Source: Chryseobacterium hagamense
GTDB lineage: Bacteria; Bacteroidota; Bacteroidia; Flavobacteriales; Weeksellaceae
DNA length: 64,000 bases
Direction of reading: 5' to 3'
NCBI RefSeq assembly: GCF_007991455.1
Contig: NZ_BJYJ01000004.1
Span: 1-64,000 of the forward strand
This document shows, piece after piece, positions 1,430 to 38,363 of this stretch. The position numbers and the translations under genes were made by a program. Under the pieces are notes generated by a model, which searched no databases, had not been told where the DNA came from, and saw only the letters and a program-made list of their open reading frames with translations. The stretch's first letter is position 1; every line of letters starts with the position of its first letter.

Positions 1430-1792
1430 TTATGGTATTTTACAACTTTTCTTGTCACAATGTATAGGAATAATCTTTCTTTTTACAGCTAATTCTTTAT
1501 AAATTAATTGTCCAATACCTGTTATTTTAAACAGGAAGAAAATTGGAAGGAATATCCAGAGTAGTGGGAGTCTTAAAAATATCATATAAATAGTAGCAAA
1601 ACCATATCTCCACTTTCCGTTATATGAAGCCATTTGTTGTTCTGCTAATGCTTTATTTATATCGATAGCTTCTTTAATATGATTAAGGTTTCTCAACTCC
1701 TTGAATTCTAGCATGTTCATCCAGTCCAATCTTTTAATATTTTTAACAAATAAAGTACAGTTGGGACAATAATTATCGTAATAAATTTTCAT
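1430..1792 (-). CDS. DCC-family (DUF393) thiol-disulfide oxidoreductase-like protein
   Basis: A 120-residue protein with the N-terminal DCC-family pattern: a beta strand, then YYDNYCPNC with Cys9 and Cys12 forming a CxxC pair. A hydrophobic segment follows at about residues 72-92 (IYMIFLRLPLLWIFLPIFF), so it is probably membrane-associated. Family members are predicted thiol-disulfide proteins of unknown substrate. Its ATG overlaps the TGA of the upstream permease gene (ATGA overlap), so the two are co-translated, and it is the last gene of the ABC-transporter operon. A redox protein beside an exporter fits the Cys-rich peptide theme of this island, but that link is inference. An IS982 remnant lies directly downstream. 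Confidence 0.75.
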   Translation of the reverse strand: MKIYYDNYCPNCTLFVKNIKRLDWMNMLEFKELRNLNHIKEAIDINKALAEQQMASYNGKWRYGFATIYMIFLRLPLLWIFLPIFFLFKITGIGQLIYKELAVKRKIIPIHCDKKSCKIP

Positions 1793-3147
1793 AACTGGAA
1801 AATATTTAAAATAGGTTTACCTGTTAAATAAGTGGCAAATAAAATAATCAATAGGATATCAGTAAATGTATTATTTCTAAAAATACGAGACATGATAACT
1901 TGAAAAAATGCAAGTATTAAAAAGCTTAGTAATACATACAAATTTTGTGTAAATGAATGTTTTATTAATAGTGGTATTAATAATATTGCATAGAAAACAA
2001 AGATTATAGCATTTTTGGAAAAAATTATTTCAAAACTTTTGTAAGGGGAAATCTTCTCCGCATAGTCAATATTATATAAAGATAATCTTGTAAGAAATTT
2101 ATTAATAAAAAGAGTAAAGAAAAAGAGTAAAGGTAACAGGAATTTTAAAAAATCTTCTTTTACCAGGAATAACAAAACCCATATAATAAGAATGGCATAA
2201 ATTGCAGTCTTGTCTATTGAGTGTGAAAACAGATAAAAGTCTTTTTGAAGTATATTGAAAAATGACAGATCTTTTTTTATCTGACTAAAGGAAAACTTAA
2301 TAGACTTTATTTCTGAGGCTTTTTGTGAAAAATCGGTTAGTGTTTTAATTGTGGTAAGTTTCCTATTTATAGGAATTTTACATAATAAATACACCGTTAG
2401 AATAAATAGTAAAAATGCGGCTAATTTATTCAGCCAGAATATAGGAAAAATAGGTTCTTGTAGAGAAATAATATGAAGTCTAGACTTTGGTAAATATCCA
2501 ATGGCAAATAGATTTGTTTCAGAAATATTCTTATTGATTATAAAATTTAATTCATGAATTCCTAAAATTCCTAAAAAAAACTTATCATTAAACATGATTA
2601 AAAATACAAATATGTAATAGGTTGCATATTTGAAAAATTTATTTTTTATATAAAATTCTATAAAATAACTTAGGCCAGCAATAATCAGGATATATGGAAC
2701 CGAAAAATATAAAAGAGGCAGAACAAAATATGATCCCGTAAGCTTGATGTTCTGGATGAAAATCGTAATATTCAAAATAAATAGAAATGTGATTCCTATA
2801 AAGAAAAGTCCTAGGATTTTATGTAATGCTTTAAAAAATGAGCTTAAAAAAGAAAGATCTTCCTGTATATAAGTATAACTCAAAATTTCGTTTTCCCTTT
2901 CTCCTGCTAAAATATGAATCATTAGCCATGAAATAATCACATTAGAAAAAATTGCGGACAAGTTTCCAATCCAAAATTTATTTGGAGCAGGGCTTATGTT
3001 ACCCATATAGAATGTTACATAATCTGCATCTTTATTAGGTATAAGAAAAAGCCCTAATACGACTAAAATCAGGGTACAGAAAATAAAGGATTTTTTTTTG
3101 ATTAAATACGTATAGTATAAAGATGACAAAGAGAGCAATCTTGACAT
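1789..3147 (-). CDS. ABC transporter permease, multi-pass
   Basis: A 452-residue, very hydrophobic protein with roughly a dozen membrane segments. The first helix follows the short N terminus (SFIFCTLILVVLGLFLIP), a loop at about 75-90 contains HILAGERENEILSY, and paired helices run to the C terminus. It has no ATPase motifs. It lies directly after the ATP-binding gene (TAA immediately followed by ATG) and overlaps the DCC gene by four bases, so it is the membrane half of an ABC-2-type exporter. The sequence does not reveal the substrate. The island context (leader peptides, GLPGLI proteins) makes peptide export or immunity plausible. AT-rich codon use matches the rest of the island. Confidence 0.7.
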   Translation of the reverse strand: MSRLLSLSSLYYTYLIKKKSFIFCTLILVVLGLFLIPNKDADYVTFYMGNISPAPNKFWIGNLSAIFSNVIISWLMIHILAGERENEILSYTYIQEDLSFLSSFFKALHKILGLFFIGITFLFILNITIFIQNIKLTGSYFVLPLLYFSVPYILIIAGLSYFIEFYIKNKFFKYATYYIFVFLIMFNDKFFLGILGIHELNFIINKNISETNLFAIGYLPKSRLHIISLQEPIFPIFWLNKLAAFLLFILTVYLLCKIPINRKLTTIKTLTDFSQKASEIKSIKFSFSQIKKDLSFFNILQKDFYLFSHSIDKTAIYAILIIWVLLFLVKEDFLKFLLPLLFFFTLFINKFLTRLSLYNIDYAEKISPYKSFEIIFSKNAIIFVFYAILLIPLLIKHSFTQNLYVLLSFLILAFFQVIMSRIFRNNTFTDILLIILFATYLTGKPILNIFQL

Positions 3148-3813
3148 TTAGCTGTTTATTTGAAAATTAATATTGTTTTCCAGAGAGACTGTTCCATTAC
3201 TAATTGTTACTTTCTTATCACAGAATCTGGAAATTTCCTCTATTAAATGTGTTGATAAAATGACTATACTAGTTTTTGAAATATCTTTTAGAAGCAAATA
3301 CATCTTTTCACGTTCCAAATAATCCAGATTATTGACAGGCTCATCTAGTATTAAAACACTAGGACTGTTAATTATAGATAACGCAAATGAGATCTTCTGT
3401 TTGATTCCACCTGACAGATTTTTTATTTTTTGATTATTATAACTTTCTAAATCAAAATCTTTTAAAATTTTTGAAATATTGTTGTTGAGACTTTTTTTCT
3501 CACATCCTTTCAATAGTCCAAAATAGGTTAAGTTTTGTATAATGTCAAAATCCTGAATAAGCCCAAGATTCTGAGACATAAATCCCAGATCTTTTCGTAG
3601 ATATTCCGGTTTATTTAATACTGATACATTATTATAAAAAAAATTCCCGGTCGATGGCTTTTTTAATGTTGAAATAATATTAATCAGAGAAGTTTTTCCT
3701 GTCCCATTTAATCCTAATAATGCATAAAGGCCATTTTCAAATTCCAGATTAATTTTATTTAAAATTATTTTATCTCCAACTGTATAGGAAATATCTTTAA
3801 GTTGTAACTTCAT
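3148..3813 (-). CDS. ABC transporter ATP-binding protein
   Basis: A 221-residue nucleotide-binding protein. From the start chosen here: Walker A GLNGTGKT at 34-41, Q-loop Gln81, signature LSGGIKQ at 133-139, Walker B LILDEP at 154-159 and switch His189. It lacks a membrane domain and pairs with the permease encoded directly after it. I chose the ATG at 3813 because the alignable domain begins there (MKLQLKDISYTVGDK). The frame stays open 18 codons further upstream, but that stretch looks like leader sequence. A GLPGLI stub lies just upstream on the same strand and could have been the operon's first gene before it was truncated. Confidence 0.85.
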   Translation of the reverse strand: MKLQLKDISYTVGDKIILNKINLEFENGLYALLGLNGTGKTSLINIISTLKKPSTGNFFYNNVSVLNKPEYLRKDLGFMSQNLGLIQDFDIIQNLTYFGLLKGCEKKSLNNNISKILKDFDLESYNNQKIKNLSGGIKQKISFALSIINSPSVLILDEPVNNLDYLEREKMYLLLKDISKTSIVILSTHLIEEISRFCDKKVTISNGTVSLENNINFQINS

Positions 3814-3900
3814 TATTTTTATTATTTTGTTTAAATATAACTGATCGTTTTTCATTCCAATACCCAATTAGTACTGAAAACGTGGCAGGATAGAAAGCAA

Positions 3901-4020: not shown

Positions 4021-4224
4021 ACTATCGTTTTTTCTGTAGCAAAGATGCAAGTGCTTTTTTGGTCATACAAGAAAAGTAACATAAGATTTATATATTTTGA
4101 GTCGTTATAGTATAAAATTTATAAATTCAAACATATAATAGCTTAAAGAACTAATTATTAATATGTTATCTAAATTACTTAAAAATGCAGAAAAATTGTA
4201 ATATTGCAAGTTGAAAAAACACAG

Positions 4225-5886
4225 ATGTATAGGATTTTGTTTATTTTAATTTTTTCTCTTTACCAAAACCTATGCTTTTCACTAAGCATAGAAAAATTTC
4301 ATATAAAAGATTCTATAAAAGCGACAACCTATGCCAAGAATTTAATTTTAAATGGCAAGAAAAACAGTAATAATGTTAAGCTAATCAATGGATATTTAAT
4401 ATTATCACGATTTTCTAACGAAAACAAAATTATTCCTTATTTAGATAGTGTTCTTATCATTGCAAAAGAGATTGACAATAGAGAATACTTGTCTGATGCA
4501 TATACATACAAGGGAAATCATTATTATTTAAAAGGAGATTATTTAAAGTCGCTGGATAATTATTTATTAGCTAAAAATTTTTGTGAAGAAAATAGCAAAA
4601 ATTATAATATAATCAATTTTAATATTGGATTATTAAAACTTGAGCTTGAAAATTATGATGAAGCAATAAGTCTATTTTTAAATTACAAATCTTCTCTGGA
4701 ACAAAATAAATTAACTGAAAAATCCAATTATGTAAGATGCCTTTACGCATTAGCTTATGCCTATAATAAGCGGAAAGATATTAAAACTTCAAATCAGTAT
4801 TTAAAGCTGGGATTCCAAAAAAATGTCAAAGCTAAAAATGCAAAAATGCATTCAAATTTATTATTAATAGCTGGAATAAATGAATACAATCAAAAAGACT
4901 ACAAAAAATCTTTGCAAACACTAGCTAAAGTTTCAGGATTAATTAAAACAAATTCTTTTGATCCTCAAAATCTGGCTTTGAGTGAATATTACTCGGGCAA
5001 ATGTCTTATAAAACTAAACAATAGTAATTTTTTGAAAAAATTTGAAACTATTGATTCTATTATAATAAAAACTAAAGATATTACTCCTGAATTAAGAGAT
5101 ACATACCCTATTCTAATTGATTATTACAAAAAACTTCAAATTAAAGATAAACAATTGTATTATATAGAGCGTTTACTTGCTGTAGATAATATATTATACA
5201 AAAAGAAAAGCATACTCTCAAATCAAATTAATAAAAAGTATGATACTCCTATTTTACTTAAAGAAAAGGAAAAATTAATTTCTGATCTCAACTCAAAAAA
5301 TCATATTCTTTTTTGGTTATTAGGAATTGGCAGTATATTCTTAGCTATTGCATTATTCTTATATTTAAGTAATATAAAGAAAGTCAAACTATATAAAAAA
5401 AAGGCTGACTTCTTGTTATCTAATTCAAAACCGTCTATTGTAAATAATACAGATGAAAATTTTAATTCTTCAACTTCAGCAGTTGTTGACAATAAGATTC
5501 AAAAATCAAAAGTAAAGTTATCTGACGATAAGTTTTTGCAACTAAGTCTTCAATTAGAGGAATTTGAAAAAGGAAAACGTTTTTTAGATAAAAATATGAA
5601 TTTAGATATTTTATCTAAAGAACTAAATACAAATAGAGCTTATTTATCAAGATCTGTAAATGAATTAAAAGGGAAGAATTTTTCACAATATCTAAATGAA
5701 TTAAGAATAAATTACATAATAGAGGAGATTAAAACAAATACACAGCTTCAAAAATTTACAATCGCAAGTATTGCAGAGTATGCGGGATATAATAATGCAG
5801 AATCTTTCACAAACGCTTTTAAAAAAATCACTAGTACTTTGCCATCTTATTTTATAAAGGCATTGCAAAAAAATAATGCAAATTAA
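4225..5886 (+). CDS. TPR-containing AraC-family transcriptional regulator, membrane-anchored
   Basis: A 553-residue protein with an N-terminal signal-like segment (MYRILFILIFSLYQNLCFS), then tetratricopeptide-like helical repeats over about residues 35-340. One membrane helix lies at about 360-380 (LFWLLGIGSIFLAIALFLYL). The C terminus is an AraC-type double helix-turn-helix at about 450-550 (LDILSKELNTNRAYLSRSVN, then IASIAEYAGYNNAESFTNAF). The layout, periplasmic TPR sensor to cytoplasmic DNA-binding domain, is common in Bacteroidetes. I start at the ATG at 4225; an upstream in-frame TTG at 4204 would precede the signal segment. It points away from the ABC operon and ends against the GLPGLI gene, so it is the obvious candidate regulator of the island. 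No binding site is proven. Confidence 0.85.
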   Translation: MYRILFILIFSLYQNLCFSLSIEKFHIKDSIKATTYAKNLILNGKKNSNNVKLINGYLILSRFSNENKIIPYLDSVLIIAKEIDNREYLSDAYTYKGNHYYLKGDYLKSLDNYLLAKNFCEENSKNYNIINFNIGLLKLELENYDEAISLFLNYKSSLEQNKLTEKSNYVRCLYALAYAYNKRKDIKTSNQYLKLGFQKNVKAKNAKMHSNLLLIAGINEYNQKDYKKSLQTLAKVSGLIKTNSFDPQNLALSEYYSGKCLIKLNNSNFLKKFETIDSIIIKTKDITPELRDTYPILIDYYKKLQIKDKQLYYIERLLAVDNILYKKKSILSNQINKKYDTPILLKEKEKLISDLNSKNHILFWLLGIGSIFLAIALFLYLSNIKKVKLYKKKADFLLSNSKPSIVNNTDENFNSSTSAVVDNKIQKSKVKLSDDKFLQLSLQLEEFEKGKRFLDKNMNLDILSKELNTNRAYLSRSVNELKGKNFSQYLNELRINYIIEEIKTNTQLQKFTIASIAEYAGYNNAESFTNAFKKITSTLPSYFIKALQKNNAN

Positions 5887-5900
5887 TTTGTAATTATAAT

Positions 5901-6734
5901 TTATGGGGAATATTTTATAGCCTTATTCAACTCAATAGGATTATTTAAAGATTTTATTTTTATTCTTTCCTTTTTTTCTGCTGGTTTTAACTGTTCTTTA
6001 GTCAAAATTGTTCCATCTTCCAGTTGCAATTTTTTTCCATCAGGAATAGTTAATTTTCCATTAAGAACATATTTAAAAGGATTCTGATAAAGTTCTAATT
6101 TCAACTTATTTAGTTTTTGATAATTTGTTTTAATCGATTTCGATTTAAAACCATCTAAAGTAAGACTTTCATAGTCTTTAGGAATTTTTTCATTTTTTAT
6201 AAGTTTAAAAAAGTAATTTTTTTGGCTATCATAAAGTTCTATAATAAGTCCTGGTAAGCCATTAAATTTATATGGACCATAAGAAAATGGTATTTCGGCA
6301 GTAAACCAAGCAATCCATTTTCTTCCTCCAAAATTGGTTTCTGCTTTTTGTACTTTCAATTCATTTATGCTTTTTGTACTATCTGTAATTTCCCATTCAA
6401 AACTTACAGGTTCTTCTATCTTATAAAAATTAACATCTCCTATATATTCATAATTTTCATAAAAAGGATTTTTTATTTTTTTTAGGAGAAAGGATGTCAG
6501 CTTAAATCCTTCAAAACCATATTGTTTTATATTAGTATATAAAGAATCATTAATGTAATAAAGTCTATTGTAATAATTAATATCATTTTGTGTTATATCT
6601 AAATTATAATTTTCTTTTGTAATCTCATTAGAAGTAGAATCCTTTTTATAATCAACTTCATAAATAAATCGATTATTTTGAGAGAACAATAAAAAAGTTT
6701 GTAATAATAAAAGGAATGTTATAAGCTCTTTCAT
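5901..6734 (-). CDS. GLPGLI family protein
   Basis: A 277-residue secreted protein. The signal peptide is MKELITFLLLLQTFLLFSQ, followed by NRFIYEVDYKKDST. The hallmark motif lies near residues 153-167 (GPYKFNGLPGLIIEL), preceded by the characteristic GGRKWIAWFT. GLPGLI is a Bacteroidetes family of unknown function, predicted to be periplasmic or surface-exposed. It is the last gene of an operon (peptide, C39-like/VKOR/thioredoxin protein, GLPGLI), only 9 bp after the preceding stop. This window has a second full copy at 37557-38363, also beside leader peptides, and a truncated copy at 3901. The repeated pairing suggests a role in handling the peptides, which is inference. Confidence 0.9.
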   Translation of the reverse strand: MKELITFLLLLQTFLLFSQNNRFIYEVDYKKDSTSNEITKENYNLDITQNDINYYNRLYYINDSLYTNIKQYGFEGFKLTSFLLKKIKNPFYENYEYIGDVNFYKIEEPVSFEWEITDSTKSINELKVQKAETNFGGRKWIAWFTAEIPFSYGPYKFNGLPGLIIELYDSQKNYFFKLIKNEKIPKDYESLTLDGFKSKSIKTNYQKLNKLKLELYQNPFKYVLNGKLTIPDGKKLQLEDGTILTKEQLKPAEKKERIKIKSLNNPIELNKAIKYSP

Positions 6735-6743
6735 AATTGCGAT

Positions 6744-8285
6744 TTAATAGTTTTCATTATTGTCTATGATTTCAGATACAAAATATTCTATATCCGATCT
6801 TTCATATTCTGTTGGGTATTCAAAGTTGTTAATAAAAATACTTGGTGTATAATATATTTCGTTTTCATTAAGCCAAGTTCTTTGATCTTTTAAAATTGAA
6901 ATTGCTTTGTCTTCATTTTGAAAATATTTTGAATATTTTTCATACCAGTTTTCTTTTTTATTGGTGGCATTATGTAAAATATACCATTCGTTCAACGCAT
7001 TCAAAAATTCACTTTTATTTTCAGCATTATTATAAATTTGAGCTAATTCAATATATGCTTGATTAATTTCTTTTGGCTGCTTTTCAAAATCTACATCTAA
7101 TAAAATATTAATACTTATTTTTTCCGATAAATGATTAATTATTTTCATAAAGTAGGGATAGAATAATTTACAATGTTTACAGTACGGATTCGTAACTAGT
7201 GTTAGATTAATATAAGAGTCTCTGCTTCCATACTTAAATGCATTTGAAAAGTCTTTATTTATTAATTCTTTCTGAATAGATAAATTATTTTTAAAGAAAG
7301 TGAAATTTTTTCTAAACTTTATATAATTTGTATTTTCATCTTTCAATTTTTGAAATACAGTAAATTTACTTTTTAAATAATAAAGACCAATAAGGGTAGA
7401 TGTAAAGGCTAAAAAATAGAATAAAATAGCAATGCTATTGAAATTTTTAAAAGAAAACAAAGTATATAATGTTGCTAATTGAATAGCAACACAGCTAATT
7501 ATCACAAGGCAAATCGGACAGAGTTTTTTAACTATGAAAAGCTGATAATAGATTGATAAACATGCAATAGGAATAAAAAACAACAATCCTATCTTATAAA
7601 TATAAAAAAAGACTTCTGTTTGCTTAAGTAATGATGCTATTAAAAAACAAAAGATTTGAGTTGCAAAAAAAGCGATTGAAACTTCTGACAAATCAATATA
7701 TTTTAAAATATTCCATCTTTTCGCGTTAAAAACAAAATCACAATCAGTTTTTAAAACCTTACTTTGGCAAACACCAATAGGAATGATTGTTCCTTTTCCA
7801 TGTGTTTTTTTGTAAGCTTCAAATCCTAAAGTTAATCCAATAATTGATGTAGAAAAAAATATTGTTTTCAAAGAAAGGTTTGTTGAATCCACTTTAAAAA
7901 GTAAGAAGATAAAAACAAAAAATATTATTGAAAATATTTCTAACAAAGGAAAACTAAGTTTATTTTTAACTTTTTCTTCAATATTATTTACTATCAAAAC
8001 GATATTATCCCAATCTGAAAAAAAGCTATTATTTTTTTTATTGTCAATAAATCTGAATTCGCCATTTGATAAAGCAATGAATTTTTCCGGTAATAAATTG
8101 ATTTCATCATTCGTTACATGATATGATGTATTTTCAATATTGAAGAACTTCATTGTATCAGAGTATGATAGTAAAGTGGGGAAGTCTGGATGCCCTTGAA
8201 GTTGTAATTTAAATTCCTCACTATCAATATTTATTTTATTGTGATTCAAATATTTCAATAGTGTATTATAATTTTTATCATTCAT
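6744..8285 (-). CDS. C39-like / vitamin K epoxide reductase / thioredoxin fusion protein
   Basis: A 513-residue three-part membrane protein. Residues 1-100 resemble the C39 peptidase-like domain of bacteriocin exporters (LQLQGHPDFPTLLSYSDTM), but the first cysteine of the whole protein is Cys173, so this domain has no catalytic Cys. Residues 110-305 form a multi-helix VKOR domain with loop cysteines Cys173 and Cys182 and active-site CPIC at 256-259. Residues 340-513 form a thioredoxin-like domain with CKHC at 369-372 and cis-Pro region YTPS at 479-482. VKOR proteins re-oxidise thioredoxin partners and so drive disulfide formation outside the membrane. The gene sits between a six-Cys leader peptide and a GLPGLI protein. 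An inert C39 domain could bind double-Gly leaders, as the C39-like domain of HlyB binds without cutting; that is inference. Confidence 0.85.
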   Translation of the reverse strand: MNDKNYNTLLKYLNHNKINIDSEEFKLQLQGHPDFPTLLSYSDTMKFFNIENTSYHVTNDEINLLPEKFIALSNGEFRFIDNKKNNSFFSDWDNIVLIVNNIEEKVKNKLSFPLLEIFSIIFFVFIFLLFKVDSTNLSLKTIFFSTSIIGLTLGFEAYKKTHGKGTIIPIGVCQSKVLKTDCDFVFNAKRWNILKYIDLSEVSIAFFATQIFCFLIASLLKQTEVFFYIYKIGLLFFIPIACLSIYYQLFIVKKLCPICLVIISCVAIQLATLYTLFSFKNFNSIAILFYFLAFTSTLIGLYYLKSKFTVFQKLKDENTNYIKFRKNFTFFKNNLSIQKELINKDFSNAFKYGSRDSYINLTLVTNPYCKHCKLFYPYFMKIINHLSEKISINILLDVDFEKQPKEINQAYIELAQIYNNAENKSEFLNALNEWYILHNATNKKENWYEKYSKYFQNEDKAISILKDQRTWLNENEIYYTPSIFINNFEYPTEYERSDIEYFVSEIIDNNENY

Positions 8286-8308
8286 TTTTTGGATATTTTC
8301 AATAAAGA

Positions 8309-8339
8309 AACAGCAACATTTTTTAAATATGTTGCTGTT
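8309..8339 (-). terminator. Intra-operon hairpin between peptide and VKOR genes
   Basis: Arms AACAGCAACAT (8309-8319) and ATGTTGCTGTT (8329-8339) pair perfectly over 11 bp with a 9-nt AT-rich loop. The hairpin lies between the peptide stop and the VKOR start. Read on the minus strand it is followed by a weak T tract. It can act as a partial terminator or mRNA-stabilising stem that lets the peptide be made in excess over the downstream enzymes. Confidence 0.6.
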
Positions 8340-8354
8340 AGTTTTAAGTTTTAA

Positions 8355-8537
8355 TTAGCAGCAATTGCTTGCGCTACAATATTTACTTCCGTCGGTGTTG
8401 CTACTAGTTACACAAAATGCAGCTACACAACCACAACCTACATCTTCTCCTGCTGCTACAACAGATTCGTTAGGATTTTTTTTAGCTCCAGTTAAAGATT
8501 TCATTTCTTTTCTTGAAAGTTGTTTCAAATTTTTCAT
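8355..8537 (-). CDS. Cys-rich bacteriocin-like peptide with GA-type leader
   Basis: A 60-residue precursor. The N-terminal 18 residues (MKNLKQLSRKEMKSLTGA) match the Bacteroidetes leader type that ends in a GG/GA motif before a small, Cys-rich mature part. The mature segment has six cysteines (35, 37, 42, 54, 59, 60), ending in NCC. Such leaders are normally cut by C39 peptidases during export. The peptide is first in an operon with the VKOR/thioredoxin fusion, which could form its disulfides, and a GLPGLI protein. It also lies beside a decayed dehydratase locus; serines and threonines between the cysteines (CVTSSNT) would be possible dehydration sites. The product, whether bacteriocin or signal, is unknown. 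Confidence 0.85.
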   Translation of the reverse strand: MKNLKQLSRKEMKSLTGAKKNPNESVVAAGEDVGCGCVAAFCVTSSNTDGSKYCSASNCC

Positions 8538-8849: not shown

Positions 8850-10113
8850 ACAGACCTGTATTATAATGAAAATTATAATTTATCTTCAAAACTAAAGTCA
8901 GATTTAAAAAAAGCTATTATACTATCAAATAAAATATCATTTCCTTCACAAAAAACTCATTTCGAAAATTTTAAAAAAGCATTTTTTGAAAGGTTTGAAA
9001 CTCAGGAAGTCCCTTTGTTGAATGCTCTTGATACTGAAATTGGGGTTGGATATATTCAAAATAATTCGGGAATTCATCCTTATTTGGAAGATCTGAAGTT
9101 TCAGGGTTCCGGAAAAAAACAGAATTTACAGTTGACACTTAATTCTATTCACTTAATTCTAAATGAAAGACTACAGAAAGCTTTATTAGAACAACAATAT
9201 AAAATTGAACTTACTGACGCCGACTTCAAAGACCTCAAAGAGGAGAACTGGGATGATCTTCCGGCAACAATTTCTTTTATGGCTGAAATTTTTTCAGAAG
9301 GAGATCAGGAAAAAATGATACTGAACGGTAGTACTGGAAAAAGTGCAGCCAATCTTTTAGGAAGATTCTGTTCAGAAAAATCGCAAGTGAGAGATTTAAC
9401 AAAAAATATTGCTAAGAAAGAAGAAGCGTTTTATAAAAATTATACTCTTGCAGAAATTATTCATCTTCCGGAAGCAAGAATAGGAAATATTGTAAGAAGA
9501 CCAACTTTAAGGGAATATGAAATTCCTTTTCTTGCACAATCGGTCTTATCTGCTGATCATCAGATTTCGGTAGAAGATCTTTTTATCTCTGTAAAAAATA
9601 ATAGAATTGTTCTACGTTCACGGAAGTTGAATAAAGAGGTTAAACCCTATCTCACTAATGCGCACAATTATTCCAACAATACTTTACCGGTATATCATTT
9701 TTTGTGTGATCTCCAGTCTCAGGACATCAGATCCGGACTGTACTTTAATTGGGGCGGATTGGAACATATCTATAAGTTTCTCCCACGGGTTAAATACAAC
9801 AATATCGTTCTTTCAAAAGCACAGTGGAAAATCACAGAAAAAGATCTTGCTTTTTTTATCTGAAAAACACCTAAGCAATGATAAGATTATTTCGAAATTG
9901 AAAGACTGGAGACTGAAAAGAAAAATTCCTCAATGGATTCAATTGGTAAAATCCGATAATACTTTATCCGTCAATTTGGAAAACGATGATATGTCAACGG
10001 TTTTTTTACAAACGGTAAAAAAAGAAAAGACGGTTGTTATTGAAGAATTTTTATATAACGGAAATGATGACTTTAAGAGGGAATTCATCTTTCCCATGCT
10101 AAAAGTAAAATAA
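8850..10113 (+). pseudogene. Lantibiotic dehydratase (LanB), 5'-truncated and frameshifted
   Basis: From about 8850 an open frame without a start codon encodes LanB C-terminal sequence (DLYYNENYNLSS, FKKAFFERFETQEVPLLNAL, DTEIGVGYIQ), continuing through IGNIVRRPTLREYEIPFLAQ. The frame is lost around 9840-9862. The remaining about 90 residues continue in the next frame (ILLFLSEKHLSND ... DDMSTVFLQTV) to TAA at 10113. Intact LanB dehydratases glutamylate and eliminate Ser/Thr in precursor peptides. Here the N-terminal several hundred residues are gone and the rest is split, so it cannot work. It lies 14 bp upstream of its split partner, which is still open. A TTG at 9015 could start a fragment, but no function is expected. 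Confidence 0.85.
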
Positions 10114-10127
10114 AAAGCACTACAAAA

Positions 10128-11015
10128 ATGATGAAAAGAAAATTTGCTCCGGGAAGCGAATGGTTATATCTTAAAATTTACACAGGAATAAAAACGGCAG
10201 ACCTTATTTTAGAAGAGTCGGTTGTGCCCTTGGTAAAGTGTTTTCAGAAAGAAAATTATATTTCCAAATGGTTTTTTATCCGTTACAATGATCCAAAACC
10301 TCACCTGAGGTTAAGGTTTATGCTGACTGATCCCCAAAACTACCCTGAAGTTTTAAAAAGTATCAGTGCTTCTCTTCAAAAATTTACAGAAAGCGGGGAA
10401 ATTTCAAATATTGTAGTAGATACGTATAACAGGGAAATTGAACGTTATGGAAAAAATACCATAAAAGATGCAGAAACTGTATTTTATAGAAACAGTGAGT
10501 TTACTCTGCAATGTCTCCATTATGACGATGAGGAAGAGATTATTGTCAGCCTTTTTTTGATTGATCAGATGCTCAATAAATTAAATCTTTCAGTGCAGGA
10601 AAAGTTAGAATGGATGAAAGATTTTAATAATGCTTTTAAAAGAGAATTCAATGCCGATAAAAAACTTAATTCTCAATTGGATAAAAAATACAAGGAGTTT
10701 AAACCTAAATATTTGGATTTCTTGATTTCAGACGAATTTTCGGAAGAGAGGAGTGCCATTTTATTCAATATTGAAAAAAACAATGCTGCTTTAGAAAATG
10801 TTCTTCGTCGCAATGAAAATCAATCTTTGAGAATGTCTTTGCAGAATTTTTTTCAAAGCATATTCCACATGAATATCAACAGGCTTTTTGTTTCCAATCA
10901 AAGAGTATTTGAAATGATAATTTATGATTATTTGGTGAGATATTATAAATCAGAGATCTTTACAATCTCCATCAAACATCGTAATAGATCCGAAAATATA
11001 AATACATTTGGTTAA
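10128..11015 (+). CDS. Thiopeptide-type bacteriocin biosynthesis protein (SpaB C-terminal domain)
   Basis: A 295-residue protein of the Lant_dehydr_C/SpaB-C type. It opens with APGSEWLYLKIYTGIKTADL, then has the family's WFFIRYNDPKPHLRLRF near residues 48-64 and DTYNREIERYG near 102-112. This domain carries out the elimination step of glutamate-dependent dehydratases, or related reactions, on leader-bearing peptides. It begins 14 bp after the decayed LanB gene and has no disruption. It is therefore an orphan survivor of a split-LanB cluster, and without LanB it is probably no longer useful. Start codons at 10128 and 10131 are both possible. The AT-rich composition matches the island. Confidence 0.85.
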   Translation: MMKRKFAPGSEWLYLKIYTGIKTADLILEESVVPLVKCFQKENYISKWFFIRYNDPKPHLRLRFMLTDPQNYPEVLKSISASLQKFTESGEISNIVVDTYNREIERYGKNTIKDAETVFYRNSEFTLQCLHYDDEEEIIVSLFLIDQMLNKLNLSVQEKLEWMKDFNNAFKREFNADKKLNSQLDKKYKEFKPKYLDFLISDEFSEERSAILFNIEKNNAALENVLRRNENQSLRMSLQNFFQSIFHMNINRLFVSNQRVFEMIIYDYLVRYYKSEIFTISIKHRNRSENINTFG

Positions 11016-15071: not shown

Positions 15072-15251
15072 TTATAAACAGGGTTCAATACAGGCCAGAG
15101 GTTTTGCCGGAGCACTGAGACAGGCAGCTTCTCCCATGATCAGATATCGGCAGAGTTCTTCACAATTGGAAGCAGGCCTCACCTTGACACAGCCTGCAGC
15201 ACCTCTGATAGACTTTAACTCCTGTTTTGTTAGCTTTTTCAGGTTTTTCAT
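15072..15251 (-). CDS. Cys-rich bacteriocin-like peptide with GA-type leader, solitary
   Basis: A 59-residue precursor. The leader MKNLKKLTKQELKSIRGA is followed by AGC and a mature region with six cysteines (21, 30, 34, 44, 54, 58) ending in PCL. The leader matches those at 8537 and 37318 almost residue for residue, while the mature parts do not align, as expected for one export route serving different cargo. It stands alone between the DUF5686 gene and the ribosomal protein operon, without neighbouring transporter or modification genes, so its processing would have to act in trans. Confidence 0.8.
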   Translation of the reverse strand: MKNLKKLTKQELKSIRGAAGCVKVRPASNCEELCRYLIMGEAACLSAPAKPLACIEPCL

Positions 15252-36827: not shown

Positions 36828-37097
36828 TTATCCTGTGATGCAGTAAAACGGTGGGCATGGTGTATTCTGTATAACTGTTCCCCACGGGCAGATGCAGATA
36901 TAAGTGTCTCCTCCGCCTCCAGGATTTCCAGGATCTCCCGGATCCGGTGAATAAGGGACACACTTCCCGCCTGAACAGATTTCCCCTGATCCGCAGCCGC
37001 CCGTTCCCGGACCATCTCCTTCAAAACAGAATGAAGGCGGTGCTCCTGCAGAAATCCCCTTTTTGTCTTCTCTTGACAGTTTTCTGAAATTTTTCAT
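36828..37097 (-). CDS. Cys- and Gly/Pro-rich bacteriocin-like peptide
   Basis: An 89-residue precursor. The leader MKNFRKLSREDKKGISAGA is followed by a mature region with eight cysteines (24, 35, 41, 46, 68, 70, 81, 86) and a Gly/Pro-rich middle (DPGDPGNPGGGG). CGSGEICSGGKC resembles small knottin-like Cys spacing. It is the longest leader peptide in the window and the only one with this linker. It is divergent from the next peptide gene at 37318. Export and disulfide formation would depend on machinery elsewhere. Confidence 0.82.
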   Translation of the reverse strand: MKNFRKLSREDKKGISAGAPPSFCFEGDGPGTGGCGSGEICSGGKCVPYSPDPGDPGNPGGGGDTYICICPWGTVIQNTPCPPFYCITG

Positions 37098-37258
37098 GAT
37101 TTTTGATTTGAATGTTTCCTACTCTATCAGCTTTTCGGATTCCGCTATTTTTTCTAAAAATAGCAGTTTTCATGCTAATCATCAAAACTTTAAACTTATT
37201 TTATTCACAGGAATATGAATTTTTTATTCATTCTGAAAATAAAATATACCACAGCCTA

Positions 37259-37287
37259 TTGACTTATTGATTTTTTGATTATCTTTA
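37259..37287 (+). promoter_or_regulatory. Candidate promoter of the 54-residue peptide gene
   Basis: TTG (37259-37261) and TATCTTTA (37280-37287) are 18 nt apart, one base off the TAnnTTTG consensus. The leader before the ATG is about 20 nt. Confidence 0.5.
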
Positions 37288-37317
37288 CATTAGTATCAAA
37301 TTTTTAACTTAAACAAT

Positions 37318-37482
37318 ATGAAAAACTTAAAAAAATTAGACAAAAGCCAATTAAAAAACATTAAGGGAGCAGGAGGCATCAAGCCCATCAATGAACCTGA
37401 ATTCTGTTTATATGCTTGTGGAAACATGGTGATCTGCGCTGCCTGCAGCAATGATTTCAAATGCCCGGATGATTCAATCTAA
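37318..37482 (+). CDS. Cys-rich bacteriocin-like peptide with double-Gly leader
   Basis: A 54-residue precursor. The leader MKNLKKLDKSQLKNIKGAGG ends in a true GG, followed by a mature part with five cysteines (30, 34, 40, 43, 49; FCLYACGNM, CAAC, KCPD). An odd cysteine number leaves one free thiol or suggests dimerisation. The leader is nearly the same as in the peptides at 8537 and 15251. It has its own promoter and terminator and is transcribed toward the GLPGLI gene on the opposite strand. Confidence 0.82.
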   Translation: MKNLKKLDKSQLKNIKGAGGIKPINEPEFCLYACGNMVICAACSNDFKCPDDSI

Positions 37483-37507
37483 ACATAGATTTTATCTGCA
37501 AACAATA

Positions 37508-37531
37508 AAACCGTTCCTTTTGGAGCGGTTT
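37508..37531 (+). terminator. Terminator of the 54-residue peptide gene
   Basis: Stem AAACCGTTCC / GGAGCGGTTT (one wobble pair), 4-nt loop and a T-run; 25 bp after the stop. Confidence 0.75.
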
Positions 37532-37556
37532 CTTTTTATCATATTTATTTTATCTG

Positions 37557-38363
37557 TTACTTAAAATCAGGTCTATAATTAAGCTCTATCGGATTATTAT
37601 TTTCTCTTAATGTTTTCTGCATACTCTGTGACATTGCACGTGAATCCCATGATAATTTATTTCCCTTTTCATCTGCCAGTACCATTTTCATTCCGCTGCT
37701 TTCAAGTTCTGCAAACGGGTGATGATAAAAATTTTCTTCTAATAATTTAAATTGGGAAAAACTTAGAAACTTACCTTTTTTAGGAGGAAAAAAAGCAATG
37801 TTTTTTTCGCGTTCATAATATATAAGGCTAAATTTAAAATCATTGGAAGAATCAATAATCTGTACAATCAATCCTGGTAATCCATGGAATATATAAGGTC
37901 CGTCCTGAATAACAATGTTTTTTGCAAACCAAGCTTCCCACATTCTTCCTCCATAAGTAACTATTGCCTTTTGACATTTTAAATTAGAAATAGTAGCAGA
38001 GTCATTTAATAATTTCCAATCTAATTTTTCATCAATTAAAATATCATAAGTATTTAAAATAAGAGGGACAGTAACCGTTTTGTATATTTCTCCTTTAAGT
38101 TTATCTTTACGGCTATATAATTGATTAAAGTTAAGAGGAGTGCCTAAGCCACGCCCTGTTTTTGCTCTAAGAGAATCATAATATTTATCATTTTCTGATC
38201 TAAAAACAGATTTTCCCTCAGCAATATCAAGAAAGTAATTTTCTTTTTTAATTGATTTTTTATCCTGACCTGAATTTGTTGTTACTTCATAAGCAAATGA
38301 TAAATTTTGCGAAAACAATAGAGTTTTCGCAAAAAATAAAAGTATAGTGAAAATTTTCTTCAA
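37557..38363 (-). CDS. GLPGLI family protein
   Basis: A 268-residue secreted protein. The signal peptide is MKKIFTILLFFAKTLLFSQ, then NLSFAYEVTTNSGQDKKS. The central hallmark is GGRMWEAWFAKNIVIQDGPY followed by IFHGLPGLIVQIIDSSNDF, and the C terminus ends RENNNPIELNYRPDF, matching NNPIELNKAIKY in the copy at 5901-6734. The function is unknown. It is flanked on both sides by leader-peptide genes, the downstream-facing one intact and the upstream one broken, repeating the arrangement seen in the first island. Confidence 0.9.
   Translation of the reverse strand: MKKIFTILLFFAKTLLFSQNLSFAYEVTTNSGQDKKSIKKENYFLDIAEGKSVFRSENDKYYDSLRAKTGRGLGTPLNFNQLYSRKDKLKGEIYKTVTVPLILNTYDILIDEKLDWKLLNDSATISNLKCQKAIVTYGGRMWEAWFAKNIVIQDGPYIFHGLPGLIVQIIDSSNDFKFSLIYYEREKNIAFFPPKKGKFLSFSQFKLLEENFYHHPFAELESSGMKMVLADEKGNKLSWDSRAMSQSMQKTLRENNNPIELNYRPDFK

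Follow-up and report, generated by a model that had tools for sequence, protein, structure and literature searches.

Bacteriocin operons with dedicated thiol-disulfide oxidoreductases include those of sublancin (BdbB), pediocin (PedC) and the glycocins; the peptide gene, an exporter gene and the gene of a peptide-specific oxidoreductase lie together in such operons, and the oxidases, which are not known to have a leader-reading domain, do their work at the membrane or outside the cytosol. The same applies to TMcin, as far as its report describes the system, where the DsbA-like TmcD makes the disulfide (PMC13252029). The VKOR-thioredoxin protein of Synechococcus (PDB 3kp9, 4nv2, 4nv5, 4nv6) joins a VKOR core and a thioredoxin-fold partner in one chain, and engineered inverted VKOR or inverted DsbB (CyDisCo) is described, in the relevant passages of its report, as workable on the cytosolic side (PMC5471842). 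HlyB-type C39-like domains (CLDs) are protease-inactive C39 relatives, discussed in parts of the literature for substrate recruitment (PMC6363468). Bacteroidota graspetide loci, among them grasp-with-spasm, combine double-glycine precursors with a C39-ABC exporter, HlyD and a SPASM enzyme, and passages of the survey connect their conserved Cys with thioethers (PMC8939145). Here we describe an operon of Chryseobacterium hagamense, found in a stretch of 64,000 nucleotides (positions 1 to 64,000 of contig NZ_BJYJ01000004.1; hereafter the window), that encodes a Cys-rich precursor peptide, a fusion of C39-like, VKOR and DsbA-like domains, and a GLPGLI-family protein. The operon probably serves leader-guided, quinone-coupled disulfide formation before export, and would thus make a disulfide-bonded exported peptide.

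NCBI CDD reportedly notes VKOR proteins that carry a C39 part at the N-terminus; a search of the open-access literature, with subscription journals outside its scope, found among the papers listed no description of C39-VKOR proteins in peptide maturation. The fusion protein differs from each of the systems above. Unlike the bacteriocin oxidases, it holds C39-like, VKOR and DsbA-like parts in one protein and is predicted to face inward. Neither the C39-like domain nor the extra transmembrane helix (TM0) has an equivalent in the Synechococcus VKOR, as the alignment starts from model residue 134-137, and canonical VKOR-DsbA relatives show the opposite charge pattern. CLDs are part of ABC exporters, whereas the domain of the fusion sits on an oxidoreductase, often beside active-looking C39 exporters. 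CyDisCo is engineered, whereas the fusion would be a natural case of this orientation, by prediction, one that occurs in mesophilic bacteria and goes with a leader-bearing peptide. The graspetide survey has exporters, SPASM and HlyD in its Table 1 but neither a VKOR nor a GLPGLI family (PMC8939145). What appears to be new is thus the combination, within one protein and across Bacteroidota, of a putatively leader-reading, non-cutting C39-like domain with a VKOR-DsbA that carries inverted topology signals; the inward-facing, leader-guided step is the part that could set the system apart from known kinds. The parts of the operon are as follows.

8355-8537, minus strand: precursor peptide of 60 residues, with a GA leader, a match to NF047798 and a Cys pattern common to the closest loci
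6744-8285, minus strand: fusion protein of 513 residues, with a degenerate C39-like domain, an extra transmembrane helix, a VKOR core and a DsbA-like domain
7962-8285, minus strand: C39-like N-terminal domain of the fusion (residues 1-108), without Cys; Q28, H32, P33 and P36 invariant (n = 65)
7890-7949, minus strand: TM0 (residues 113-132), preceding the part that aligns with the Synechococcus VKOR
7371-7877, minus strand: VKOR core (residues 137-305), with invariant C173, C182 and C256-P-I-C259
6747-7277, minus strand: DsbA-like thioredoxin-fold domain (residues 337-513), with C369-K-H-C372 and invariant T480-P481
5901-6734, minus strand: GLPGLI-family protein of 277 residues, with a signal-peptide-like start and a predicted fold that is LolA/LolB-like and partly PNGF-II-like

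The gene order of peptide, fusion and GLPGLI on a single strand agrees with the initial annotation; the intergenic gaps are 69 bp (peptide to fusion) and 9 bp (fusion to GLPGLI). That the CPIC and CKHC motifs are intact is likewise confirmed (C256/C259 and C369/C372), and all six redox Cys are kept in each of 97 fusion proteins. The VKOR assignment follows from the loop pair C173 and C182 and the CxxC pair C256 and C259, present in 97/97, and residues 137-282 of the predicted model superimpose on the Synechococcus VKOR with a Z score of 13.2 (137 residues, root-mean-square deviation 3.2). The last domain matches the DsbA-like proteins ScsC and BdbD with Z scores of about 16, and the residues expected of a DsbA-like domain, C369, C372, T480 and P481, are invariant in 65 proteins; T480-P481 is presumably the cis-Pro of the DsbA-like family. 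Bacterial VKOR enzymes pass electrons from thiols to quinone.

The neighbourhood is conserved across genomes, at 21 of the 21 closest loci and in a wider set, a point on which the three-gene reading in the initial annotation depended. The closest set consists of 20 relatives and the window, with 23 fusion genes in total. A six-Cys peptide with the pattern C.C..[AG].C lies no more than 700 bp upstream of every one of the 23, with a CC terminus in every listed peptide row, and at all 21 loci a GLPGLI gene on the same strand starts between -76 and +11 bp relative to the point where the main fusion copy ends. Given a peptide before 23/23 fusion genes and GLPGLI after 21/21 main copies, the operon association is not due to chance. 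At larger scale, fusion matches occur in 156 of 296 family genomes (E <= 1e-10; none in 140) and in 41 of 395 phylum genomes (E <= 1e-20; none in 354). Neighbourhoods were studied for 60 matches chosen from those listed for the family and for the 77 best of 212 confirmed; the 117 loci counted below are distinct fusion protein strings, with related species counted separately. An adjacent Cys-rich leader peptide is present at 101/117 loci by either of two rules; a strict leader pattern gives 93/117 as a lower bound, having missed the GA leader of the window and some true peptides, and the second rule raises it to 101. Where no leader peptide adjoins the fusion (16 loci), a C39 exporter lies 231-3748 bp away in 14, and 115/117 loci have a peptide or peptide-exporter setting. 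Same-strand exporters with intact C39 Cys and His motifs are found in 70/117 neighbourhoods, 67 of them within 5 kb; this count is based on motifs, as a looser cluster label took in other ABC proteins (an 812-residue UvrA and the ABC ATPase of the window). HlyD is nearby in 53/117 loci, and genes for TlpA-type thioredoxins are present in many. GLPGLI lies within 1 kb of the fusion in 41/117 loci, about half of them from the closest group, against a chance expectation of ~1% (31 copies per 4.67 Mb). Within 500 bp of the fusion, leader peptides number 0.98 per kb on the same strand and 0.01 per kb on the opposite strand; at 4.5-6.5 kb the same-strand value is 0.12 per kb. The decay with distance and the near-empty opposite strand rule out chance co-occurrence of fusion and peptides. 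Five of six plasmid matches (all but H5) were examined and cover two further orders, with six-Cys small peptides in 4/5 (Parabacteroides distasonis, Emticicia, Aureibacter and Spirosoma). A second Parabacteroides record has separate gene annotations for the C39 part and the thioredoxin part, and the listing of nearby open reading frames holds no Cys-rich leader peptide. A search of phage records for the fusion gave no match.

The precursor peptide matches the NCBIfam model NF047798 (leader_Chryseo, annotated by name as 'bacteriocin-like protein') with 32.3 bits (cut-off 23.5). Its leader comprises residues 1-18 (MKNLKQLSRKEMKSLTGA) and is hydrophobic at -4, -7 and -12. In LahT150, the leader positions that enter the C39 groove are, according to the relevant part of the report, the same three (PMC6363468). 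The features recur among 130 Cys-rich small open reading frames collected within 500 bp of the fusion without use of the leader pattern: 126 have a leader ending in G[GAS], and L, I, M, V or F occupies -4 in 97% of these, -12 in 96% and -7 in 65%. The six-Cys core has the pattern CxCxxxxC...YC....CC. Among 186 distinct same-strand peptides (within 2.5 kb of the fusion, with two or more core Cys), the core Cys number is even in 179, and it stays even in 102/108 after thinning to non-redundant cores (binomial p 1e-23; cores with fewer than two Cys, of which there is one, are excluded from the parity count). In the genome of the window itself, all 20 pattern-picked peptides (30 leader loci) have 4, 6 or 8 core Cys. 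Full pairing of Cys demands an even number, which thioether chemistries do not, and the even-Cys bias in 102/108 cores therefore points to disulfides, in line with the disulfide formation in the peptide core claimed by the initial annotation.

The N-terminal domain of the fusion is related to C39 peptidases and seems unable to cut. PF03412 matches 29 of the 65 members at E <= 0.01 (best 5.5e-8), and profile comparison (hhalign) of the N-terminal domain with the C39 domains of neighbouring exporters gives 95.2% (E 2.5e-8), while eight control families all stay below 1%. The VKOR and thioredoxin Pfam matches of the window's fusion are below gathering scores; its relatives show all three families. 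Both the C39 likeness and the absence of Cys from the first 172 residues, noted at the outset, are thus borne out, the first Cys of the fusion being residue 173. Across the family, 96/97 proteins are Cys-free before reference position 42, the region of the exporters' catalytic Cys (the exception, L300, has no CG motif), and the whole N-terminal domain is Cys-free in 74/97. The His and Asp motifs of C39 are not kept in the aligned region, whereas full-length neighbouring exporters keep the Cys, His and Asp motifs in 67/67. Since both the catalytic Cys and the His/Asp motifs are missing, the domain is C39-like rather than a C39 peptidase. It is not decaying, however: Q28, H32, P33 and P36 are invariant in 65 proteins, and the domain is modelled with a predicted local distance difference test score (pLDDT) of 82-91 over 10-residue blocks. 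Docking of the leader by the inert peptidase domain, as initially suggested, is favoured by the leader motif and by the way in which leaders and N-terminal domains vary together. Over 56 loci, and controlling for the other domains, leader distance correlates with N-domain distance (partial r 0.25, p 0.001) more than with VKOR distance (0.05, p 0.048) or the DsbA part (0.04, p 0.088). Such co-variation is supportive of docking, short of proof.

The membrane arrangement of the fusion is predicted to be inverted. The model (mean pLDDT 86, predicted template modelling score, pTM, 0.60) and hydropathy give six membrane helices, of which the second starts the VKOR core; the extra first helix brings the C39-like domain to the side of the membrane that holds the active site and the DsbA-like domain. 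That side carries on average 17.2 Lys and Arg versus 1.0 on the other (65-member set; the active-site side is also longer), and the inverted pattern persists per residue in 97/97 proteins (0.179 versus 0.044). In 11 canonical VKOR-DsbA proteins the pattern is the reverse, with 3.2 Lys and Arg on the active-site side versus 12.3; these were hand-picked from 28 listed and include nearly identical sequences. Around the loop cysteines of six single-domain VKORs there is no Lys or Arg. Net charge behind the last helix of the fusion averages +4.2, and 96/97 proteins are positive in this segment. The positive-inside rule, applied to the charge density on the active-site side, predicts that the leader-docking domain, the VKOR centre and the DsbA-like domain all face the cytosol. 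A cytosolic site would suit a leader-reading domain, since the C39 domain of these exporters is established to cut the leader off before the core exits. The initial annotation placed leader-guided oxidative folding at the membrane; docking and disulfide formation stand, while the side has to be revised, as the charge pattern points to the cytosol and to oxidation that precedes export. A natural two-compartment case in an archaeon may be provided by the VKOR of Aeropyrum pernix, as the title of a study suggests.

Taken together, the parts would work as follows. A double-glycine-type leader would dock in the dead C39-like domain, which reads it without cutting. The CKHC centre of the DsbA-like domain would then oxidise the six core Cys to three disulfides, and electrons would run from CKHC to the VKOR loop pair C173/C182, on to CPIC and finally to menaquinone. 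With the extra N-terminal helix and the inverted charges placing these parts in the cytosol, oxidation would take place while the leader is still attached. A C39-peptidase ABC exporter, encoded elsewhere in this genome and in cis in many relatives, would remove the leader and export the oxidised core, and the GLPGLI protein, with its LolA-like predicted fold, might handle the product or protect the producer in the periplasm. Gene association, domain identities, conservation of the redox Cys, loss of the C39 catalytic Cys, even-Cys bias and charge inversion are computed from sequence, on which all the evidence is based; from them we infer docking, the direction of electron flow, the membrane side, the order of events and the GLPGLI step. 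We are evenly divided on a broader proposal, that the protein is a natural inside-out VKOR-DsbA with its own leader reader, making disulfides in the cytosol, and the common engine of disulfide-rich peptides throughout the Bacteroidota, to which grasp/SPASM, LanC and sugar-transfer steps are added at some loci. If the mechanism is right, the dead C39 domain would be a new leader-recognition element on a modifying enzyme, and natural leader-guided disulfide formation in the cytosol a new strategy of peptide maturation. It would provide a common, testable chemistry for a peptide family that is large and unexplored in a major bacterial phylum, with gut (Parabacteroides) and marine bacteria among its carriers, as well as a ready tool for producing disulfide-rich peptides in cells, where engineered inverted VKOR is already used.

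Several observations weigh against leader-guided oxidation in the cytosol. In the reducing cytosol, disulfides would have to be protected or exported quickly. Charge bias and helix count are the grounds for the orientation, and 60 single-membrane-pass HlyD proteins from the same loci, taken as a control, do not obey the charge rule, Lys and Arg being denser in the N-terminal flank in only 14/60. The window has no C39 exporter in cis, a Pfam scan of its fusion as a single protein gives no C39 match, and fold comparison with the PDB was taken up by DsbA and VKOR matches and covers those parts of the fusion. The co-variation of leader and N-terminal domain is modest and partly clade structure, and 6/108 non-redundant cores have an odd Cys number. 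Some of these points fit an outward-facing enzyme, which would oxidise the peptide in the periplasm after export, with the C39-like domain merely tethering exporter or precursor. The bacterial VKOR-DsbA systems known so far work outside the cytosol, the DsbA-like domain resembles the periplasmic ScsC and BdbD, TlpA-type thioredoxins are encoded at many loci, and the HlyD control indicates that proteins of these bacteria can break charge rules. However, the denser Lys and Arg on the active-site side in 97/97 proteins, opposite to the 11 canonical relatives, and an extra helix that would place the leader reader where no leader is expected make this arrangement unlikely. That the fusion instead keeps the precursor reduced, as a reductase or chaperone, and disulfides form later outside has a slim chance: thioredoxin folds work in either direction and the predicted side is cytosolic, but the cytosol is already reducing, the four VKOR Cys are invariant and VKOR enzymes of bacteria hand thiol electrons to quinone.

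In other bacteria, VKOR and VKOR-DsbA proteins serve as general oxidases, according to parts of the literature (PMC12453122), and many genomes of the genus of the window have exactly one copy of the fusion, as might be expected of a housekeeping thiol oxidase that peptide genes merely adjoin. We give this a small chance, considering the peptide or peptide-exporter setting of 115/117 loci, the 140/296 family and 354/395 phylum genomes that have no match at the thresholds above, and a domain of the leader-reading type on the protein itself. The peptide might also be, or have been, a class I lanthipeptide of a neighbouring lantibiotic dehydratase, the sequence of which adjoins the peptide gene on the opposite strand (9015-11015); there is also a weak TIGR03893 match, far below cut-off. 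Dehydratase-like genes occur in 5/117 loci (L123, L146, L153, L214 and the window) and those in L146 are apparently long; the recurrence of such genes is a further point against the disulfide reading. However, the match in the window starts at position 327 of a 649-position profile and leaves 1-326 absent, no dehydratase gene was found in the other 112/117 loci, and the Cys number is even, which thioethers do not require. The lanthipeptide reading, to which we assign next to no probability, is rejected for the window, given the truncated dehydratase and the presence of such genes in just 5/117 loci. The dehydratase remnant (9015-11015, plus strand) has its C-terminal domain as a separate open reading frame. 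Since dehydratase-like genes occur in five loci, disulfide and other chemistries may be combined at some.

Glycosylation is one such possibility. The Parabacteroides distasonis plasmid locus (L302) encodes LanC and two annotated glycosyltransferases. Loci L125, L126, L129, L139, L143 and L145 share a DUF6625-type gene (one scanned), and most of them also carry a gene that matches GT25 below threshold (one scanned). Glycosylated disulfide peptides are therefore possible at the DUF6625/GT25 loci and at L302.

The GLPGLI protein matches TIGR01200 with 154.7 bits (cut-off 50) and is 61-66% identical to the GLPGLI proteins of close operons. PNGF-II is the first fold match of its model (pLDDT 86, pTM 0.81), with about half of the length covered (E 3e-9); carriers of the LolA/LolB type follow (E from 4e-4). 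The initial annotation had this protein act on the product outside, a proposal in need of revision; what is seen is a signal-peptide-like start together with the LolA/LolB- and part-PNGF-II-like predicted fold. A role as periplasmic carrier, chaperone or immunity protein may be inferred from the model. A protease was set aside, as nothing protease-like appears among the 50 fold matches listed. If the mechanism is right, the large GLPGLI family would thereby be given a concrete setting, together with a carrier-like fold by prediction.

Fusion matches lie at three places in this genome, the window included. The second copy belongs to a grasp-with-spasm locus with a SPASM maturase (TIGR04193, 312 bits, cut-off 175), an ATP-grasp protein scoring below cut-off (TIGR04192, 193 bits against 230), a Cys-rich GG-type peptide and a GLPGLI gene. 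The third copy (contig C64) is broken by an IS630-like transposase, with the GG peptide, the GLPGLI gene and a TPR/AraC regulator still in place. The genome as a whole has 31 GLPGLI matches and 28 leader_Chryseo matches at E < 0.01, and one intact C39-ABC exporter (DCGPTC motif), with a peptide gene behind it, is on another contig (C68). Given the many leader peptides and the exporter on a different contig, peptides and enzyme may also work in trans. The window contains a further six-Cys leader_Chryseo peptide, the leader of which ends in GA (15072-15251, minus strand), and a second peptide-GLPGLI neighbourhood (36828-38363), with leader_Chryseo peptides at 36828-37097 (minus strand) and 37318-37482 (plus strand) and a GLPGLI gene at 37557-38363 (minus strand); the genome search gave no fusion match in this neighbourhood. 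Two further features adjoin or interrupt the operon.

8309-8339, minus strand: RNA stem-loop that separates the peptide gene from the fusion gene (z -5.3)
4204-5886, plus strand: TPR and AraC-type (HTH_18) regulator, convergent with the operon and of uncertain membership; a relative adjoins the third system copy (C64)

All five relatives tested have stem-loops in the same gap (z -5.0 to -6.7), with three other stem sequences. A processing or attenuation hairpin is suggested, which would yield more peptide than enzyme, with the uncoupling of the two levels conserved. Elsewhere in the window, genes for an ABC ATPase, a membrane protein without Pfam match and a DCC1-like thiol-disulfide oxidoreductase stand in a row (1430-3867, minus strand), possibly as an immunity or export set.

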